IMG/VR virus record: IMGVR_UViG_3300042402_007025
Span: 1 to 46,546 of that record
Strand: one strand, 5' to 3'
Source: a virus
Length of the DNA stretch: 46,546 nt
In this document: piece after piece, positions 13,758-42,704 of the stretch
Numbering within the stretch: the stretch's first letter is position 1
How the letters are laid out: each line of letters starts with the position of its first letter
Made by a program: the position numbers and the translations under genes
Notes under the pieces: model-generated
The model's input: only the letters and a program-made list of their open reading frames with translations
What the model was told of the DNA's origin: nothing
Database searches by the model: none

Positions 13758-14471
13758 ATGAATAAAAACGATGTTTTACAATTAGCGGAAAGCCATGGTG
13801 GCTGGAGCATGAGCGATTTTCAAAGTCGGTATTTTGTAGTAAACTCACAAGTTACAGATTATCGTCGAGTTAGGCAAGCCCTGCTTGAAATAGAAACTCG
13901 GCTTGCTGCTAAAAAACAAATAATTCGTGATTCTAAGAAAACAGAAGTAAATATTAAGATTAAGCAGCGCGATTTAGAAAATGAAAGCCGTGATCTTGAA
14001 AAGGAATTAATCTTATTAGATATCGATCAATATAATTATGATTTATCAGTATATGCAAAAAAGCTGAGAATCGTTGAAGAAGAACTTGATCAATTTTCTA
14101 AATTAGTGGTAGAAATTGTGCCAACCGCTGAGGACTTGCAAAAGTATACTCAACATGACGAAGAGTTAGAAAGAGAATATTGGATTTATCGTATGGCAAA
14201 GCAGGCTAGCGTCGATATGGTAACGACTGGTCGCATTGGAGCAGGTAACCTTGATTCAATTGCAATGATGACACCAAACGATCAAGCTTTTACAATTGGT
14301 TCAGCTTTACTTAATTCTAAAAAGTTAACATCTGGTATTAATAAACTAGAAGAAGCAATTAGTACAAATACTAATTTGTTAAATAGCAACTTTACTGGCT
14401 TGTTTGAAAACACTGAGCTGCTGAAATTATTAGCAGGTAATAATGAAAAGATTGATGGCGAAGATATTTAG
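13758..14471 (+). CDS. Unknown coiled-coil protein, 237 aa
   Basis: I chose the ATG at 13758, 19 nt after the upstream stop; an upstream in-frame start at 13689 would overlap the previous gene by 50 nt and adds an unlikely N-terminus. Residues about 40-120 are a long charged helix (RQALLEIETRLAAKKQIIRD, then QRDLENESRDLEKELILLD) with heptad-like spacing, suggesting an oligomeric coiled coil. The C-terminal half (TGRIGAGNLDSIAMMTPNDQ) looks more globular. No enzyme motif is seen. Its 3' end overlaps the start of the U32-like/methyltransferase gene by 17 nt, so the two are probably made together. Function unknown. Confidence 0.6.
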   Translation: MNKNDVLQLAESHGGWSMSDFQSRYFVVNSQVTDYRRVRQALLEIETRLAAKKQIIRDSKKTEVNIKIKQRDLENESRDLEKELILLDIDQYNYDLSVYAKKLRIVEEELDQFSKLVVEIVPTAEDLQKYTQHDEELEREYWIYRMAKQASVDMVTTGRIGAGNLDSIAMMTPNDQAFTIGSALLNSKKLTSGINKLEEAISTNTNLLNSNFTGLFENTELLKLLAGNNEKIDGEDI

Positions 14472-16107
14472 TATACCAATTAACCCTAAATTATCTGAGA
14501 CACAATTTATAGAATTCGTTCAGTTCTGCGATACCTATAAAGACTATATCTCAGATCTATATTTTACTTGTAGAATTACTCCATTTACGCAAGATGCAAT
14601 GGGTGATGTGTTTGTTGCAGATGATTCTGCGCAATACATGATTGATATGGCAAAATTTATTCAAGACAAGACAGGTATTACTGCATCTGCAACATTTAAT
14701 AATATATCAGTTAGACCTACTCAAGAAAATCTAGACCTATGGATAGAGTCATTTAGGCCATTGTATGAGGCTGGCATTCGACTATGTACACTACCATTTA
14801 ATCATTGGCTCTTAACTGGGCAAATTCAAAAGGAATTTCCAGAATTAGAGGTACGAAGTTCCATCCTAATGGATACGAAGACAGCGACCGACGTCTATAA
14901 TGTAGTAACCAGTGGGTTTAACTCAGTTTGTATTGATAGAGCCCTAATGCGAGATCATGATACAATAAAGACAATTGCCAAAATAAAAAGAAAAAATCCA
15001 TTTAAGCTGGTTCTTTTAGCAAATGAAGGCTGTTTAGGTAAATGTCCAGTAATGGCGGAGCATTATCATTACAATAATACTAGAACAACAGATAGTCAAT
15101 ATTTCAATAATGCAATTAGCCGAGTTTCTTGCCCAAAATGGGATTTTACTAATCCGGCAGTCGTGCTAAAAACTGCAGATATTCCTGCATGGAAAGAGGA
15201 TTGGGACGAATTTCTTGAACTTGGAGTTGACATTTTTAAAATGCATGGCCGAGAAAACGTCAAGAAGATTTATGAGACTATGGAAATTGTTCGCAATTAT
15301 GCAGAGGGTAAAGAGAAGTTGTACAGTATTAATCTAGGTATAAACGAGCAAGTCGAGAGTAAATGGAGAAAGATCATTAAGACCTGTAAATTTGAATGTT
15401 GGAACTGTAATTTTTGTGACAGAGTGGCAACAGACAGTCTAAATTCAAAGGCTACTCAAATTGCAAATCTATTAGTAACAAGCGTTAACTCTAGCTTTGA
15501 AACAGCTGTACCCGGTATATCTAGCCCAAGGGTAGATAAACTTCTAAATGAATTAGGTAAAATTTCAACCTCATATCTTGAAGTCGGTTGTCTCGGTGGT
15601 AGAACCTTTTCGAGCGTATTAGCCGGTAATTCTCTCAGGGCCTATGCAGTAGACAATTGGAAAGAAGGCGTCTCAGCCGAGAATGAAGAAATTGGTATGT
15701 CTGTTACAAAAGATGATTTTGTTAAAAATATTTCGCCATATAAGGGTGAAAATCAAATAAAGGTCTTTAATTGTGATTTCATTGATGTAAATAAAGAATC
15801 AATTAAGGATATTGATCTTTTCTTATACGATGGTGACCACTCTTATGAAAGTACTAAATTGGCGGTTGAATATTTTGCATCAACTTTTGCAGATGAGTGT
15901 ATTTTAGTATTTGATGATGCAAATTGGGATGGTGTAATCGATGGTGCGCTTGCTGGTATCGAATCAGCTGGCTTAACTGTTCAGTATGATAAAAAAATAC
16001 TGAATAATATTGAAGATAAAAACATGTGGTGGAACGGAGTGTTCATCGCATTGGTAAATAAACATAAAGCTAGTTACAACGACTTGGCACCAGCTACAAA
16101 AAATTAA
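14455..16107 (+). CDS. Fusion of a U32-like Fe-S TIM-barrel domain and a class I SAM methyltransferase
   Basis: I prefer the ATG at 14455 (MAKIFSIPINPKLSETQF, 550 aa); an ATG at 14443 is also possible. Residues 1-325 resemble peptidase U32-family proteins (the RlhA/TrhP/UbiU-UbiV type), barrel proteins that hold a [4Fe-4S] cluster. The key signature is NEGCLGKCP (C193, C197), joined by C226 and a cluster C311-x3-C315-x2-C318-x2-C321. Residues about 350-535 form a Methyltransf_24-type domain: YLEVGCLGGRTFSSVLAG is the SAM-binding motif I, YAVDNW the acidic strand-2 end, LFLYDGDHSYESTKLAVEYF and ILVFDDANW the later motifs. The gene overlaps the coiled-coil gene upstream and stands 11 nt before an S74 fibre. 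Known U32 proteins hydroxylate RNA bases or ubiquinone precursors; the substrate here is unknown. Domain calls are from motifs, not alignment. Confidence 0.65.
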   Translation: MAKIFSIPINPKLSETQFIEFVQFCDTYKDYISDLYFTCRITPFTQDAMGDVFVADDSAQYMIDMAKFIQDKTGITASATFNNISVRPTQENLDLWIESFRPLYEAGIRLCTLPFNHWLLTGQIQKEFPELEVRSSILMDTKTATDVYNVVTSGFNSVCIDRALMRDHDTIKTIAKIKRKNPFKLVLLANEGCLGKCPVMAEHYHYNNTRTTDSQYFNNAISRVSCPKWDFTNPAVVLKTADIPAWKEDWDEFLELGVDIFKMHGRENVKKIYETMEIVRNYAEGKEKLYSINLGINEQVESKWRKIIKTCKFECWNCNFCDRVATDSLNSKATQIANLLVTSVNSSFETAVPGISSPRVDKLLNELGKISTSYLEVGCLGGRTFSSVLAGNSLRAYAVDNWKEGVSAENEEIGMSVTKDDFVKNISPYKGENQIKVFNCDFIDVNKESIKDIDLFLYDGDHSYESTKLAVEYFASTFADECILVFDDANWDGVIDGALAGIESAGLTVQYDKKILNNIEDKNMWWNGVFIALVNKHKASYNDLAPATKN

Positions 16108-16118
16108 CTTCTTAGGAA

Positions 16119-17654
16119 ATGGCAAATTTATTATCAACTAGTGTCACAGGTACAGTTAACTCAACTGGCAATATGACAGCCGCTGGTTTTACTGGTAATG
16201 CAAACGTTGGCGGAACTGGTGCTGCAACTTGGCACCCAAGTGGTATTTATGTCGGCAGTACACAATGGTTATATGGAGCCATGTATAAAAATGGATCAGG
16301 CATTTATGATGCTGGTGAAATTACGACGTCTTCACACGGCACTTCTGCAAACTGGAAGTCTGCTTATGATTGGGGTAACCATGCAAGTGCAGGCTATTTA
16401 ACATCTCTCCCATCACACAACCACGATGATCGATACTACACAGAAACAGAAATTAATAATTTTTCATATTTTAGAGATAATGAAGACCGAACTCTAAAAG
16501 TTCTACGATTTACTGGAGTCGGTGGAGATTCTGGTAACACAAGTAATCACTCCTATGCAATTTATCAAGGTGGCGGAGGATGGAGTCATCCTTATCCAGA
16601 TCTACATATAGGTTATCATACTGGTATTAAGATTGGAGCAAATACAGGATATGGCGGTATCAGATTCTATGATGATTCTACTATGGTAACTGAACTTTTC
16701 TCAGTCGGTAACGGAAGTTCAGATGTTAGAGTTTCTAATAATTTATCAGTAGGCGGTACTATAACCGGAAGTAACTTATCGGGAACAAACACTGGCGACC
16801 AAACTAATATTTCGGGTAATGCCGCTACTGCAACCAACGTCGCAGCTTCGGGTATTACTGGTCAAACAGGTATGTGGACGAGTGCCGCTAGACCTGGTCC
16901 ATATAGACTTTACCGAAATGAAGATAACTCTGCATACAACGTTCAAACTACTTGGAGTGCAGATGTAAGTGGATATTGGTCTCTTCGTGGTTATCTTAAT
17001 GATACCTACCATGCTCCATGTTATGTAGGATATGCGGGATATGCAAGTAGCGCAGGATCTGTTGCATGGGACAGTGTTACAAGCAAACCTGGAATTTATC
17101 TTCATAATACTTGGCATGGAAATGTTTACTTAGGAACTGGTGGTGATGTTTACTGTACAATCCTCTATGATTCAAATAACTCTGGTTATTACCTAGATCC
17201 AAATGGTACTTCTAGATTAAATCGAACTAACTATGATTATGTTTATTCATACAATTGGGTATATGCTGAAGGCGATGTCATTGCATTTTATTCTGACGAA
17301 CGGTTAAAAACTAGAGTCGGCACTATTGAAAATGCACTAGATAAAATTAAGCAGTTAACAGGTTTCTATTACGTAAATAACGACTTAGCTAAGTCATTTG
17401 GATATAAAGACGAAAAAATTCAGGTAGGTCTTTCTGCACAAGAGGTACAGTCAGTTTTACCAGAAGTTGTTACACTTGCGCCATTTGATACAGAGTTCAA
17501 TGAAAACAATCAAGTAATTGGATCCAAGAGTGGAGAATCATATTTAACAGTTAGCTATGATAAATTAGTGCCTCTCTTAATTGAATCTATTAAGGAACAG
17601 CAACTTCAAATCGAAGAACTTAGATTTGAAGTTAAAAAATTAAAAGGCGAATAA
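16119..17654 (+). CDS. Second tail fibre with C-terminal peptidase S74 chaperone domain
   Basis: This 511-residue fibre begins MANLLSTSVTGTVNSTGNMT. H100-N-H102 followed by DDRYYTE is the same HxH module as in the giant fibre, and NTGDQTNISGNAATATNVA is also shared, so the two fibres exchange or descend from common modules. The C-terminal 120 residues are an S74 chaperone: S392 opens SDERLKTRVG with the Lys at +5 (S/K dyad), then GLSAQEVQSVLPEVV, a conserved YLTVSYDKLVPLLIESI helix and a coiled coil. Cleavage is expected before S392. It may be a side fibre or alternative adhesin. It is followed 1 nt later by the Hint-domain protein. Confidence 0.9.
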   Translation: MANLLSTSVTGTVNSTGNMTAAGFTGNANVGGTGAATWHPSGIYVGSTQWLYGAMYKNGSGIYDAGEITTSSHGTSANWKSAYDWGNHASAGYLTSLPSHNHDDRYYTETEINNFSYFRDNEDRTLKVLRFTGVGGDSGNTSNHSYAIYQGGGGWSHPYPDLHIGYHTGIKIGANTGYGGIRFYDDSTMVTELFSVGNGSSDVRVSNNLSVGGTITGSNLSGTNTGDQTNISGNAATATNVAASGITGQTGMWTSAARPGPYRLYRNEDNSAYNVQTTWSADVSGYWSLRGYLNDTYHAPCYVGYAGYASSAGSVAWDSVTSKPGIYLHNTWHGNVYLGTGGDVYCTILYDSNNSGYYLDPNGTSRLNRTNYDYVYSYNWVYAEGDVIAFYSDERLKTRVGTIENALDKIKQLTGFYYVNNDLAKSFGYKDEKIQVGLSAQEVQSVLPEVVTLAPFDTEFNENNQVIGSKSGESYLTVSYDKLVPLLIESIKEQQLQIEELRFEVKKLKGE

Positions 17655-17655
17655 T

Positions 17656-18978
17656 ATGGCAATCGGAACTGGCACAGTTTCAATGACCGCTATTAACTTA
17701 GAATTAGGTCGTTCATCTAATGCTCAAATCAGTTTAGATTCAGCAGAAAATGGTTCGTACGCTGCAATAAACTCGTGTTCGCCGAGCCGTCCTAGTTCAG
17801 CCAATTCTGCGGCAATGTCTGAGTGGCGAGGCTATAACCACTCCTTTGCCTGCTGTAATGCTCCAAGCATTTCATCAAATTCAGTTTCTTCAAGCTCCTT
17901 TACTATTAATGTAAGTTACACAAACTGTTCAGCCATGCACGTTGAATATAGTTCAAATGGTGGATCTACTTGGAGTACTAATACCGGTGGGTGTAGTACA
18001 ACTTCAACAGTATCTGGTCTTGCTTCAAATACAGCATACCAAGTTAGAGTGCGAATAACTTGTACTTCAACTAATGGTTATTCTGGATATTCAAATACAA
18101 TTACAATGACAACTAGCGCCGGATGCCCAGCATATGGAACTTATCTGAGTCAATTTTGTTCAGGCTGTGCACTTTATTATCGATACGCGAATGGTAGCTG
18201 TGGAACTTACGATCAAGTTTATTCAGACTGTACTACTGCATGTGGTGGATGTTGTTGTTCGCCTGGGTATGGAACCTATTTAAGTCAATATTGTTCCGGC
18301 TATGATCTTTACTATACGTATTCAAATGGTTGTAATGGAACCTATTCTTCTCTAATTGAAAGTAATTCTACAACATGTGGATATCAAGAGCCATCCATAA
18401 ATTGTTACGTCTACTTTGGAGATGGAAGTGGTAGCTGGTCAGGCCGTGACTGTGATGGAAATATAGTCGAAGGCTGGTCTTGCTGTTATGGCGAATACCT
18501 ATTTTGTGGGACTAGTATTTCATATGGTGGATATGGAGACCTTAACCAAGTGTGCGGAACCAGCCAATGCCCTACTCCAGATATGCCTATTCTAATTAAT
18601 CCTAATACTTGGGTGATGGCAGGAGACCTTAAAGTTGGAGATTATGTTTACACTAAACACGAAACAACTGGTGAATGGGGATCATACCAGGTGACCTCAG
18701 CAAACTCAGGAACAAATATTGTTAGTCGTACTATAATTGGAGGCCAAGAAATAAAAGTATCAAGCAATCATAAATTCTTAACTGAAAGCATGGGATTTGT
18801 TCCATTATCAGAACTATGGGTTGGTGCTAAGGTACAAACAGTAAATGGACTTGCCGAAATTGAATCTATTGAATCAATTGGAGTGATGGAAGTAGTTCAA
18901 ATTGAAGTTGATCAAGCTCACACCTATGTTATTGGTGAAGTTGTATCACATAATAGAAAAGACGAAGGAATCGTATAA
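17656..18978 (+). CDS. Cysteine-rich tail protein with FN3 and C-terminal Hint (intein/hedgehog-type) domain
   Basis: The 440-residue protein starts MAIGTGTVSMTAINLELGRS, a common opening of phage tail proteins. Residues about 68-153 look like a fibronectin type III domain (VRVRITCTSTNGYSGYSN). Residues 158-241 hold two cysteine-rich repeats of the type YGTYLSQ(F/Y)CSG..LYY.Y.NG. From C305 to N433 a Hint fold is visible: block A CPTPDMPILI, MAGDLKVGDYVYT, block B SNHKFLTESMG with H372, and the terminal block AHTYVIGEVVSHN with H432-N433. Residue +1 is Arg rather than Ser/Thr/Cys and only seven residues follow, so classical splicing is not expected. Hedgehog-like or bacterial-intein-like cleavage at C305 is more plausible. 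More than 20 Cys in a virion protein is unusual. The next gene overlaps its stop by one base. Confidence 0.8.
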   Translation: MAIGTGTVSMTAINLELGRSSNAQISLDSAENGSYAAINSCSPSRPSSANSAAMSEWRGYNHSFACCNAPSISSNSVSSSSFTINVSYTNCSAMHVEYSSNGGSTWSTNTGGCSTTSTVSGLASNTAYQVRVRITCTSTNGYSGYSNTITMTTSAGCPAYGTYLSQFCSGCALYYRYANGSCGTYDQVYSDCTTACGGCCCSPGYGTYLSQYCSGYDLYYTYSNGCNGTYSSLIESNSTTCGYQEPSINCYVYFGDGSGSWSGRDCDGNIVEGWSCCYGEYLFCGTSISYGGYGDLNQVCGTSQCPTPDMPILINPNTWVMAGDLKVGDYVYTKHETTGEWGSYQVTSANSGTNIVSRTIIGGQEIKVSSNHKFLTESMGFVPLSELWVGAKVQTVNGLAEIESIESIGVMEVVQIEVDQAHTYVIGEVVSHNRKDEGIV

Positions 18979-19229
18979 TGCAAAACTTACAAACATATCA
19001 AATCGAAGATGCTGTCTATGAATTAGACACATACTACAACATTGGAGCAGTTTCCAGATTTAAAATTGTTGGAATAGTTGATGTAAATTCAACTGTATTC
19101 TTTATTTGTGAACGAGAAAATGGGGCAATTCATATTGGTTCCCCAGAGTATGGAATCTATACTCATACCTTTATGTACTATGCCCTCTTATTTCACAATA
19201 AAGCAAAAAATGCAGCAACCCAACCTTAA
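18978..19229 (+). CDS. Unknown small protein, 83 aa, coupled to the Hint fibre
   Basis: The ATG shares its A with the upstream TAA (TAATG), indicating translational coupling. The protein (MQNLQTYQIEDAVYELDTYY) is mixed beta/alpha in appearance with a central VSRFKIVGIVDVNSTVFFIC strand pair and an aromatic C-terminal part (TFMYYALLFHNKAK). No motif is recognised and no signal peptide is present. One-base overlap with the Hint protein suggests it may be a partner, chaperone or acceptor for it, but nothing in its sequence proves this. Confidence 0.6.
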   Translation: MQNLQTYQIEDAVYELDTYYNIGAVSRFKIVGIVDVNSTVFFICERENGAIHIGSPEYGIYTHTFMYYALLFHNKAKNAATQP

Positions 19230-19323: not shown

Positions 19324-20295
19324 ATGAAGAAAACTTCAATTGGGTCAAATGCGGCCCGTTTTCTCTCAACATTCAATGCGCTTGTTAGAGGGAGTAAGAG
19401 TTGGATCCTTGTATTACTTGTTATGTTGACTACGACTGTAGCCCAGGCACAGTATAGCAATACTGCAATTAAGAATGGTTCTGCTGAAGCTAGAAAAACT
19501 AGCGACACAATAATTAAGCCCGGTCCAGGCGACTCAATCATGGGTCCAACCGAGATCGCCGAAGTTATTGTTACTGCGAAAAAATATCCGCTACAAACAA
19601 AGGTTGGTCCTTATAATCAACCACTTTGGAGTACTATGCGAATGTTTCCATCGACCAGAGTCTATGTCATGAATCCACCGGGCTCAGTGATGTATGAAAA
19701 ATGGTTTGACATTCGTGACCGTCGGAACGGTCCAGCTCAAGTCAGAATGCGTGATGAATTTACATTTGGCTTAGGTAACCGACTACAACTTGACTTATAT
19801 TCACACACAGTATATGATGGTGAAGACGGTAGTAAAGAATTCAAATGGAGAGGTTTCTCATGGGAAATACGTTATGCACTTGCCGATTGGGGTAAGATTT
19901 GGGGTAACCCAACCATTTATTTAGAACATAAGTTATTGGATGGTCGTATGGGTATTGAACCAAAATTATTACTTGGTGATAGAATTGGTAATAATGGCAT
20001 TTGGGGATTAAATTTAATTTATGAGGGTAACATTGCCCCAACTAAAGAATTACAAGAACGGGAATACGCGTCAACTGCATCGTATGGTCACATTATTAAT
20101 AACGATGTTACAATCGGTGTAAGTAGTATGTATCGTTATAATGATTATGGAGGTAGTAGTCAAGAGATTTATCTTGGACCATTATTTCAATATCGTTTCA
20201 ATGGACACGCATACCTCAGTGTTGAGGTAATGCCCGGTTTAACAAAAGAATCAAAAGCATCACGTAGCACAATCATTTTTGCATGGAGATTTTAA
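19324..20295 (+). CDS. Predicted outer-membrane beta-barrel protein
   Basis: The 323-residue product has a long N-region, a hydrophobic core (SWILVLLVMLTTTVA) and a plausible signal peptidase I site after A42 (AQA-QYS). The mature part contains a short IAEVIVTAKKYP segment and then alternating polar/hydrophobic strands rich in Tyr, Trp and Gly (FSWEIRYALADWGKIWG, GIWGLNLIYEGNIAP, TIGVSSMYRYNDYGG, YLGPLFQYRFNGHAYLSVEV). It ends in AWRF, a terminal-Phe beta signal typical of proteins inserted by BAM. This points to a barrel in the host outer membrane, not a virion protein. It overlaps the permease gene by 13 nt. A phage-encoded barrel could exclude other phages, alter uptake or help release. 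No specific family is claimed. Confidence 0.7.
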   Translation: MKKTSIGSNAARFLSTFNALVRGSKSWILVLLVMLTTTVAQAQYSNTAIKNGSAEARKTSDTIIKPGPGDSIMGPTEIAEVIVTAKKYPLQTKVGPYNQPLWSTMRMFPSTRVYVMNPPGSVMYEKWFDIRDRRNGPAQVRMRDEFTFGLGNRLQLDLYSHTVYDGEDGSKEFKWRGFSWEIRYALADWGKIWGNPTIYLEHKLLDGRMGIEPKLLLGDRIGNNGIWGLNLIYEGNIAPTKELQEREYASTASYGHIINNDVTIGVSSMYRYNDYGGSSQEIYLGPLFQYRFNGHAYLSVEVMPGLTKESKASRSTIIFAWRF

Positions 20296-21287
20296 TAAAA
20301 GGACAAGAATTTCTTGTCTATTTAATTTTTATTATGTTTATCACAGGTATCCTCAAGGACCGGGGATACCTGATGGACATTTTTAGAGTCTTAACCCAAC
20401 GAGTTAAGTCCAAAAAGATGGTGGTCTTTTTTGTCTCACTGTTTGGTGGAATCCTACCCATTCCAGGTAGAGTTGCACTCTCAGCGAGTATGCTAAATAG
20501 CATTGCACCAGTTAATGATAAAAAGAGACAGAAATTTGGCATCATCGATTATTTAGCAACTCACCATTATTATCTATGGTCGCCTTTGGAAAAAACTACA
20601 ATTATTCCAATGGCAGTGTTGGGTCTTACTTATATGCAATTTATGTCATATATTTGGCCTCTGTTACTTATTAGTGGTCTCTATATTAGTTACTATATTC
20701 TTTCATTAAAGGACGATGAAATTGATATAATTATGCATGACGAACCAGTTAACTGGAAAAATATCACATTAGTGGTTCTACCATTTTTTGCAGCAATCTT
20801 AGCAAGCTGTTTTAGCGATCACTACTTTGCTATTTTTACGGCATTTACCACTTATCTAGTTTGGTATTCAAAGAGTTGGAAGAATCTTATATCGTATATC
20901 AATTGGGAGATTGTTTGGATAGTTGCGCTAGTTATTATTTTAGGTAACCTAGTCGCATCATATTATCCACTAATTGAATCTTATATCAAAACCTATTCCA
21001 CATCACAGAGCATCATTCTAGTCTCTATGGTAGCGTTTCTATCGTCATTCCTATTGGGATCTTCGGCCAAATACGCAAGTATTGTAAGTTTATTAACAAG
21101 TATCTTTGGCATGCACTATTTTGTGCTGTTCTTTACACTTGAATATTCAGCATACCTAATTTCTCCATCTCACAAGTGTTTACCAATTGGGCAAAAATAT
21201 TTTCATACTGGGTTTTTAACATATCTAAAGGCCCTAGTCATTTGGATTTCATTAATGATTGCCTATGCGCTGCTAACAATTCTTTAA
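20283..21287 (+). CDS. Polytopic inner-membrane protein, DUF401-like permease
   Basis: This 334-residue protein has about nine hydrophobic segments across its length (for example FLVYLIFIMFITGIL, MVVFFVSLFGGILPIPG, ITLVVLPFFAAILASC, IVWIVALVIILGNLVA, AFLSSFLLGSSAKYASI, ALVIWISLMIAYALLTI). The segment GGILPIPGRVALSASML followed by IIDYLATHHYYLWSPLE and then IIPMAVLG matches the pattern LP.PG..(A/L)SA.M ... Y...H....PL...I..A.LG that I associate with DUF401 membrane proteins, which resemble ion-transporter-superfamily permeases. Its start overlaps the barrel gene by 13 nt. Substrate unknown. It is probably an auxiliary host-derived gene acting in the host inner membrane during infection. Confidence 0.65.
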   Translation: MEILIKGQEFLVYLIFIMFITGILKDRGYLMDIFRVLTQRVKSKKMVVFFVSLFGGILPIPGRVALSASMLNSIAPVNDKKRQKFGIIDYLATHHYYLWSPLEKTTIIPMAVLGLTYMQFMSYIWPLLLISGLYISYYILSLKDDEIDIIMHDEPVNWKNITLVVLPFFAAILASCFSDHYFAIFTAFTTYLVWYSKSWKNLISYINWEIVWIVALVIILGNLVASYYPLIESYIKTYSTSQSIILVSMVAFLSSFLLGSSAKYASIVSLLTSIFGMHYFVLFFTLEYSAYLISPSHKCLPIGQKYFHTGFLTYLKALVIWISLMIAYALLTIL

Positions 21288-28491: not shown

Positions 28492-28512
28492 TCACCTAGA
28501 AAAATACAGTAG

Positions 28513-28979
28513 TGGAGCTGACGGGAGTCGAACCCGTGTCCAATCCGGCTACTTCAATGAATTCATTCACAGGCTTAGTCCATTTTTTCTAAATTGGACA
28601 AAATATCTGATTTGATGTATGTGGGAAACCCATCAGAAAAACAACCTGGTCTCGAAATTATTTAGTAGAGCTCCGACCTGTTACTCCAACTCTTTCGCCC
28701 CCTGTATAGATCGACTACGATCAGATGCTCAAGGTCAGCCTTGACTATTAAGGGAGCCACCTGGATTTGGCTTTCACTTCTTCTTAAAGTCCCATGAGTG
28801 ATACGGGAGAGATTAGGCAGCTACTGCTAAATCTGCACCTACGAAAGACATTGCGTCTTCGAAAGTCCAAGTTGACTTATTGTCAGTTATTGTTCGTATA
28901 GGTTATTAAGGAGTTTCCAATACTAACTCCGCCTGCATTCAAAGAACTACGACCGCTTGTCAAACGCCAAAACAGCCCC
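28513..28979 (-). ncRNA. ssrA: Phage-encoded tmRNA (transfer-messenger RNA)
   Basis: Read on the minus strand, the 5' end GGGGCTG pairs with CAGCTCC at the 3' end to form a 7-bp acceptor stem. The T arm is clear: ACGGG, loop TTCGACT, CCCGT (complement of 28522-28538). The 5' segment GGCGTTTGACAAG resembles the conserved tmRNA D-like region, and GCAGGC / GCCTGT can form part of the long H2 helix. An early hairpin GGAGTT/AACTCC and several later stems (for example GATCG-TAGT-CGATC, GTCCA/TGGAC) fit pseudoknots. A tag reading frame ends in LAVAA then TAA at 28813-28815; with GCA (28852-28854) as resume codon the tag is AMSFVGADLAVAA. The bases before GCA (AAGAC) resemble those before the E. coli resume codon (TAGTC). 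The 3' CCA is not encoded (A then CT). At about 467 nt it is long for a tmRNA. Confidence 0.92.
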
Positions 28980-40643: not shown

Positions 40644-42704
40644 ATGCAATCTAGATTTATTAAGTTAACGGAATACTGTCTGCTAGAGTATCAATACGAA
40701 TCTCTATCACCATCTAGTCCAATCCTAATAACTTCGCCGTTTTATAAGTTAAAAACGGGCGAAAACGAAATATTTTTGTATAACCCAGATTCTGCTCTAT
40801 ATGAAACTGGAAATACTAAAGATTTAACTGTAATTCCAACTTCGACCAATGGTGGTCGATTTGTCTATCTTGACTCAGAAAACAGTCCAAATTATACTGA
40901 ATACGAAACAACCCTTAATGAAACAGTTGTTCCAGGCGGATCGATTATTGCAGATCGCGCTAGATTCTATATTGCATCAGGTTTCCAATTCACAGAATTT
41001 ACAAATATGGTCTTATCGGTTAGACAAGACATGAATGACGGCAATGCTTTAATTTTAGCAAATATTCTATTAAATGCTACAACAATTGGAAATATTCTAC
41101 TCTATACAACTAGACCATTTATTATTGGTAATACTCTATACGATCGATATATTGATATAATTATTCCATCAATAAAAAATATAGATGAGGACTTTTATAC
41201 TTCCCCAAACCAGGCAAATACATTTGAATATCAAATAACTAATGGTGTTGGATTAGTTAAGAATAACCCAATTACTATAAACTTATTTGAATGTGCATTT
41301 GGTCCAGATCTAAGAACAGCTGATGAGATTTATACAACCGTTGATATTACACGTTCTTATAACGCTCAAATTTCTCAAGCAAACGATTTTGATTTAGTTG
41401 GTGCAAAAATTAGAGAAGCTTCAGATGGAGACTACTTAGAGTTTTTTGCAACTTGGAATCAAGGTTTTCCGGAAGAATTTATTGGAATTCTTGAGAAAAG
41501 ATCAGGTCAAAGCTGGATAATTTTCCATCAACTTACAATATTTGAACAAATTGGTTCAAGTTTTGTTCAAAGTGGAGAGGCAACATTTTTCCAAGAAACC
41601 AACTTTGATGAGCCGTTAATTTACAGACCAATTCTTAAAAATGCAAATGAGGCTGTTACAATGGCAGTCGACTATTCAGTTAGACTTGTAAATAGAGTAA
41701 CTAACGAACAAATTATTAGAACTGCTTCACTAACCGTAGTTAACCCAAACAAATATGGAAAATCTCTACTTAAGTTAGATTTAGCAGACAAACCTAATTC
41801 ATATAAAATTTCAAATATTGTCGTAAAGAAATTAACAGACGGTTTTCAGGTTTATAATGATCCAGCAATGGTTAAAGCTGCAGCTGCCCCAGCGCCAACT
41901 ACGACTGCGGTAGTTGAGCCAACTGTTATAACTAATACAGTTACTCAATATGTTCCAGTATTTTATCAACAAAATACAGTCGCGGTTTCTCAAATTAGCC
42001 ACTTAATTAGAACTGGAAAAACGACAGATCTAGCATTTGGCCAAGGCAAATTATCGATTGCAGTAACACCATTTGATAATACGTTTAAGTTTCAGGTAAA
42101 AACTGAATCGACTTCTAACCAAGGAACAGTTAAACTAAATAATATGGATCTAACTCAATTTAGTGGATTTGAATTAGTGTTTGGCTCAGCTTCTTCTAAG
42201 ATAAGTATTGCTAATGTTACAGACCAAGCTCAAGTTAACTCAAATCTTGGTGAAATTCTTTTTAAAGTTGATGCAACTACAACCTCAAAGATTCAAAACT
42301 TGGATGACCCTAAATTCTATATTGTTACCGTTGGAAAAGACGGCAGTCGATCCGCTCTATACACCGGAAAATGGTATAAATCTGATGATGTTACTAAAGC
42401 AGCCGATGATAATTCAGCAGAATTAGCAGTTGCTAAAAAACAGGTAGATTTAGCCGATACCGTAGCGTCTCTTCAAGAAAGAATAGGTCAACTTGAAACA
42501 GAAAACGCTAACTTAAGAAATGCTACTGTTAATATAAAAGTTTCTCAACCAGCCGGCTCAGTAGTTGACACTGGCGTAACTGATAATCCAATTACATTAA
42601 CCAGACCAGTTTCAGGATATGGTAAGATGAAATATGGTAAGAACTTTGGTAGACCAGGATCTGGCGGAATGTTTATTGAAGATGCTACACAGACTCAATT
42701 CTAA
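40644..42704 (+). CDS. Large structural protein of unknown type, 686 aa
   Basis: The protein begins MQSRFIKLTEYCLLEYQYES. Its first 420 residues are beta-rich (FIIGNTLYDRYIDIIIPSIK, AVTMAVDYSVRLVNRVTNEQ, SLTVVNPNKYGKSLLKLDL). An Ala/Pro linker at about 425-440 (MVKAAAAPAPTTTAVVEP) leads to a second beta domain (ISIAVTPFDNTFKFQVKTES minus the first residue). A coiled coil follows (VASLQERIGQLETENANLRN) and a Gly-rich tail (RPGSGGMFIEDATQTQF) ends it. This layout suits an elongated virion protein such as a neck/whisker or baseplate appendage, but no family is recognised. Only a weak promoter-like box precedes it. Confidence 0.65.
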   Translation: MQSRFIKLTEYCLLEYQYESLSPSSPILITSPFYKLKTGENEIFLYNPDSALYETGNTKDLTVIPTSTNGGRFVYLDSENSPNYTEYETTLNETVVPGGSIIADRARFYIASGFQFTEFTNMVLSVRQDMNDGNALILANILLNATTIGNILLYTTRPFIIGNTLYDRYIDIIIPSIKNIDEDFYTSPNQANTFEYQITNGVGLVKNNPITINLFECAFGPDLRTADEIYTTVDITRSYNAQISQANDFDLVGAKIREASDGDYLEFFATWNQGFPEEFIGILEKRSGQSWIIFHQLTIFEQIGSSFVQSGEATFFQETNFDEPLIYRPILKNANEAVTMAVDYSVRLVNRVTNEQIIRTASLTVVNPNKYGKSLLKLDLADKPNSYKISNIVVKKLTDGFQVYNDPAMVKAAAAPAPTTTAVVEPTVITNTVTQYVPVFYQQNTVAVSQISHLIRTGKTTDLAFGQGKLSIAVTPFDNTFKFQVKTESTSNQGTVKLNNMDLTQFSGFELVFGSASSKISIANVTDQAQVNSNLGEILFKVDATTTSKIQNLDDPKFYIVTVGKDGSRSALYTGKWYKSDDVTKAADDNSAELAVAKKQVDLADTVASLQERIGQLETENANLRNATVNIKVSQPAGSVVDTGVTDNPITLTRPVSGYGKMKYGKNFGRPGSGGMFIEDATQTQF

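Follow-up and report, generated by a model that had tools for sequence, protein, structure and literature searches.

The gene at positions 17,656-18,978 (+ strand) of the window, as we call the whole 46.5 kb virus record analysed here (46,546 nucleotides), encodes a probable tail-fibre-type protein of 440 amino acids plus stop that ends in a Hint domain, followed after its terminal His-Asn (HN) by a lysine that is nearly invariant across a phage family of such domains. On the strength of sequence comparison and structural modelling, we consider it rather probable that this is an autoprocessing domain resembling A-type bacterial intein-like (BIL) domains, in which a thioester between Q304 and C305 would be resolved by the adjacent lysine. 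Inteins, Hedgehog and scattered bacterial proteins are the known settings of Hint chemistry; in the present case the domain recurs as a module at the C-terminus of phage proteins, accompanied by an invariant lysine. If that lysine is the acceptor, bacterial viruses would possess a counterpart of the isopeptide-forming domain of Tetrahymena, a new route to covalently joined virion parts would exist, and isopeptide ligation could be achieved in one step with a compact tool.

The carrier protein is modular, and its full architecture is common to three orthologues (L002, L003 and L011). Residues 1-64 (17,656-17,847, +) recur at 56-58% identity in five fibre-locus genes without a Hint domain (L004-L008), and are therefore a reusable module that probably serves virion attachment, judging from the sequence. 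The original prediction had called this region a tail-protein N-terminus, a view that agrees with its occurrence in fibre-locus genes and with the S74 fibre adjoining the gene, but tblastn searches against cultured phages returned no match for residues 1-64 or for the whole 440-residue protein. A fibronectin type III (FN3) domain, at about residues 70-155 (17,863-18,120, +), is matched weakly by HMM (E=0.006) and is supported by the predicted structure, in which this region matches the FN3 of NCAM with a probability of 1.00; the full-length model has a mean pLDDT of 42 and is confident in the FN3 region only. Cysteine-rich GTYLSQxCSG repeats follow in residues 157-243 (18,124-18,384, +), and residues 1-304 contain 24 cysteines in all, compared with one, C305, in the Hint domain. 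Both the FN3-like domain and the cysteine-rich repeats had been read correctly from the sequence. It is probable that the protein is located in the virion.

The gene lies directly 3′ of a tail-fibre gene (16,119-17,654, +) whose product ends in Peptidase_S74, the endosialidase chaperone domain, and a 2875-residue fibre further upstream likewise carries S74. Peptidase_S74 is, as proposed for the Hint domain, a C-terminal autocleaving domain of phage fibres, although the two families are unrelated and cleave by different mechanisms. The window terminase is closest to those of large phages of Sphingomonas, Prevotella, Flavobacterium and Tenacibaculum, and one orthologue-bearing contig measures 217 kb; we therefore regard the window as part of the genome of a large T4-like phage, the host of which probably belongs to the Bacteroidota.

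The Hint domain covers residues 305-433, from C305 to N433 (18,568-18,954, +). In a phmmer search of the PDB, the window protein matched the BIL domain 2lwy (E=5e-6) and an intein (E=0.0015), and a profile of the whole family matched 2lwy at E=2e-12. The AlphaFold model of residues 290-440 reached a pLDDT of 91, and Foldseek related it to BIL domains, inteins and Hedgehog with a probability of 1.00; the best PDB folds were Tetrahymena BIL2 at the top, then a Clostridium BIL and DnaB inteins, with Hedgehog further down. The C-terminal Hint domain proposed earlier is thus borne out by profile search and structure prediction alike, and the residues named with it (C305, H372, H432-N433, Arg at +1 and seven residues after HN) are all exact.

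The fold, C305 at position 1 and a block B that reads S-S-N-H372, in keeping with [ST]xxH, place the domain in the Hint superfamily. C305 (18,568-18,570, +), the predicted thioester-forming residue of block A, is Cys in 49/49 complete cluster representatives of the family described below, and the block B histidine H372 (18,769-18,771, +) is present in 52/52. The block G residues H432-N433 (18,949-18,954, +) and a near-invariant motif, T333-x-H335-E336 (18,652-18,663, +), complete the conserved set. Of these positions, C1, the block B histidine and HN remain invariant while overall identity within the family drops to about 30%, and dN/dS values of 0.16-0.20 for the Hint part indicate purifying selection, which argues against an idle domain. 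A Hint fold without activity, kept as a structural or binding tip, would suit the C-terminal position, where fibre tips usually lie, but given the invariance of C1, the block B histidine and HN at such low identity we regard this reading as very improbable.

Among known systems, A-type BIL domains such as that of Clostridium thermocellum (PDB 2lwy) are the closest in kind: they share the Hint fold, C1, the block B histidine and a terminal HN, lack Cys, Ser or Thr at +1, and sit in variable proteins at non-conserved sites. The class is defined by a C-terminal HN with a non-nucleophilic +1 residue (PMC7765530, PMC4031507), and the window domain has H432-N433 followed by R434 and belongs to a family borne by variable, non-conserved proteins. 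What sets the phage family apart from A-type BIL domains is its association with structural-type proteins, its near-invariant lysine at +1 or +2, its T-x-H-E motif and a tail that is often only 2-15 residues long after HN. B-type BIL domains, by definition, have no intein-type C-terminal motif (block G), whereas HN is present here.

Class 1 inteins, including those of phage terL genes, agree with the window domain in fold and in blocks A, B and G, but the window domain has Arg at +1, lacks an endonuclease domain and is not set within a conserved enzyme. That the fibre gene holds an intein, spliced or decaying, as the Hint fold and HN might suggest, is scarcely credible: there is no Cys, Ser or Thr at +1, only seven residues follow HN, and related domains are found at the linker regions of about 40 unrelated proteins. 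Hedgehog (Hog) likewise has a C-terminal Hint fold and uses its thioester to release the upstream part, but the window protein has no sterol-recognition region, possesses HN and ends seven residues after it. Pretoxin Hint (PT-HINT, PF07591) is the best Pfam match of the window protein, yet its score of 18.4 bits is below the cut-off of 27.7, and no toxin domain follows the Hint domain, only the seven-residue tail.

Despite being the closest fold by Foldseek, BIL2 of the Tetrahymena thermophila BUBL1 locus (6y75, 6tmm) is eukaryotic, zinc-activated and situated between ubiquitin-like domains. No ubiquitin-like match was found upstream of the window Hint domain and only seven residues lie downstream, so the flanking that characterizes a BUBL BIL is lacking. 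The nucleophilic lysine of BIL2 resides in a folded ubiquitin-like domain, whereas the phage lysine is here in a short tail.

To delineate the family, IMG/VR was scanned with a DNA pattern for DAHTY-x6-[ST]HN, which demands neither C1 nor the block B histidine nor the lysine, and at least 120 stretches were obtained. Iterated HMM searching yielded 108 distinct Hint domains, which fall into 52 clusters sharing less than about 60% identity, and 122 distinct domains were considered in total, with every catalytic position retained. Nearly all carriers are uncultured phages and prophages. By single linkage, the domain stands behind about 40 unrelated upstream families, at linker regions, and so is not rare. 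Among the upstream parts are PHROG tail-fibre and tail-protein families (L156, L152 and L091), encoded in prophage-like loci of Stakelama, Anaeromyxobacter and relatives, and some contain collagen-like stretches; of the relatives that have a long C-terminal part, some are perhaps not virion proteins. Culturable carriers include Sphingomonas glacialis (L154), Sphingomonas sp. QA11 (L155) and Stakelama pacifica (L156), in each of which the domain lies in a probable prophage. In genome 3300024346_000016, two unrelated proteins (L003 and L105) bear the domain. No second Hint domain was found within the 46.5 kb window. A large protein of the window's structural region (40,644-42,704), which groups with L105 (4704-7133), L063, L027 and L029, has no Hint domain, whereas its 80%-identical homologue in L105 carries one at the C-terminus, which makes the domain an optional extra.

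Further arrangements were observed among the relatives. A phrog_376-type tail protein appears to be split into two adjacent ORFs in five loci (L155, L134, L147, L127 and L091), where the first ORF ends in a Hint domain with a short lysine-bearing tail and the second starts with MSVARIYRVG or similar. Tandem Hint pairs occur in the single ORFs of L057, L088 and L114, from which internal segments would be released if both copies were active.

Database coverage of the family is sparse. With Pfam and NCBIfam, the Hint part scored below curated cut-offs in the proteins scanned, apart from one borderline match of a relative to TIGR01443, a 24-residue intein C-terminal motif (16.8 against a cut-off of 15.6 bits), and PHROGs gave no Hint match in these proteins. 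When the Hint domain alone was compared with cultured phages by tblastn, mainly terminase and other inteins were retrieved. Structural matches included UniProt entries from uncultured phages named only “Hint domain containing protein,” which means that phage Hint domains are already recorded in databases, without a function. Our literature search on phage Hint or BIL domains, structural proteins and isopeptide bonds returned nothing beyond inteins of phage enzymes, an unrelated helicase and BIL2, and an invariant lysine after the HN of Hint domains was not described in the papers searched. A phage Hint family with a conserved lysine is thus apparently undescribed and uncatalogued. Genome-wide PT-HINT matches were also considered as possible relatives; they were few and mostly different, and were kept as a comparison group.

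The window protein ends in the tail RKDEGIV (residues 434-440; 18,955-18,975, +), and orthologues end in RKEGIV, VKQP or RKMGGFE. While Arg at +1 had been noted correctly, the conserved lysine at +2 (K435 in SHN-R-K; 18,958-18,960, +), which the family comparison marks as the proposed acceptor, had been overlooked. The family HMM contains the lysine columns, and two selections made independently of the lysine agree with its result. In the first, which required neither C1 nor the lysine and covered 102 loci preceded by 100 or more open codons, Lys occupied +1 in 54, +2 in 41 and +3 in 4, that is, 99 of the 102 loci; the remaining three have Ser or Cys at +1, like ordinary inteins. In the second, which required neither HN nor Lys, HN together with a lysine within three residues was found in 32/32 clusters. 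None of the 122 distinct domains is without the lysine. Its register, on the other hand, is not fixed: a tree of 77 domains calls for at least 13 changes, a count that was the same after weak branches had been collapsed. The tails after HN comprise 2-20 residues in about half of the domains and from 34 to several hundred in the others.

The habit may extend beyond phages. Among other HN-ending Hint domains, in proteobacterial genomes, we counted Lys at +1 or +2 in 8 of about 23, and some of those with short tails end exactly in HNK. Four alphaproteobacterial proteins (L185, L186, L180 and L194), several of them cysteine-rich, end in a Hint domain with HNK or HNK plus a few residues, and represent a possible cellular parallel.

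Based on these observations, we propose the following course. In the folded protein, the Q304-C305 peptide bond would be converted to a thioester on C305 with the assistance of H372; the thioester would then be resolved, N433 could cyclise, and the mature protein would end near Q304. K435 would take part in the resolution, most likely as the attacking amine, leaving the C-terminus of the fibre linked by an isopeptide bond to the lysine of the short tail; in relatives with a long C-terminal part, the bond would form with the lysine of that part instead. That processing occurs at all is, in our judgement, likely. A lysine that stands beside the active site, tolerates shifts of register and is never replaced by arginine is most simply read as the residue whose side chain resolves the thioester, and we give this acceptor role a little under an even chance. 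BIL2 offers a precedent, as it is reported to form an isopeptide bond between its upstream part and the epsilon-amine of a lysine and to conjugate that part to other proteins (PMC8616854). A-type BIL domains, for their part, make the thioester, undergo cleavage through Asn cyclisation and possibly ligate via the backbone amine freed in this way (PMC4031507); such a ligation would not need the lysine, which counts against the lysine step.

Another explanation is that the Hint domain aids folding or marks completion, is then removed by its own hydrolytic cleavage and plays no further part, while the lysine does no more than orient the tail or accelerate Asn cyclisation. Cleaved products dominate with BIL domains (PMC4031507, PMC7664689), two fibres of the same locus carry S74 chaperone domains, and the protein at 40,644-42,704 works without the Hint domain that its L105 counterpart has; all three observations fit such a maturation device. 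However, a positioning role should accept arginine in some of the 122 domains and none has it, the lysine is kept even in the shortest tails, which consist of FK, and a discarded domain offers no obvious reason for residues after HN. We therefore consider this explanation possible but unlikely.

The original prediction held that the fibre could release itself from the Hint domain and be joined through its new C-terminus to a nucleophile on the virion or host surface. Its chemical basis is plausible, in that all residues for thioester formation and Asn cyclisation are present, under purifying selection, at the C-terminus of a probable fibre. The nearly invariant lysine at +1 or +2 points, however, to an acceptor within the protein itself as likelier than an outside one. 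Intein-type thioesters hydrolyse. A thioester kept until an amine or hydroxyl of another virion protein or of the host surface attacks it, bonding that partner covalently to the fibre, would thus have to survive from assembly to adsorption, which is doubtful, and the conserved lysine beside the active site is a nearer acceptor. Such attachment in trans appears improbable, even with the intact thioester chemistry, the recurrence of the domain at the ends of tail proteins and on two unrelated proteins of one genome, and the reported conjugation of other proteins by BIL2 in its favour. Returning to the built-in lysine, we suggest tentatively, and with somewhat less assurance than for the acceptor role itself, that this widespread family of phage Hint domains couples the carrier protein's C-terminus to this residue through an isopeptide bond. 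It would constitute a conjugation module that needs neither ATP nor an enzyme and that phages have added to dozens of unrelated proteins, most of them structural; in some cases it might link one phage protein to another, or to the host surface.

Several features of the surrounding locus were also recorded. An ORF of 83 residues (18,978-19,229, +) overlaps the stop codon of the Hint gene and is conserved downstream in the orthologues; as a family-wide partner of the Hint domain it was rejected, being confined to the orthologue group. Between the Hint locus and LamG-like genes, positions 19,324-21,287 encode a 323-residue protein and a DUF401 membrane protein, and this segment is probably a recent insertion, since both genes are missing at the same place in L002 and L003. 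Inside the tail-fibre cluster, a 554-residue protein (14,443-16,107) belongs to a PHROG of unknown function and has a methyltransferase-like C-terminal part. The phage also encodes a tmRNA (28,510-28,979, -; Rfam RF00023, 95.7 bits, full model), for which ARAGORN predicts the tag VKADLEHLIVVDLYRGRKSWSNRSELY, without the usual Ala-rich end signal and unusually long.
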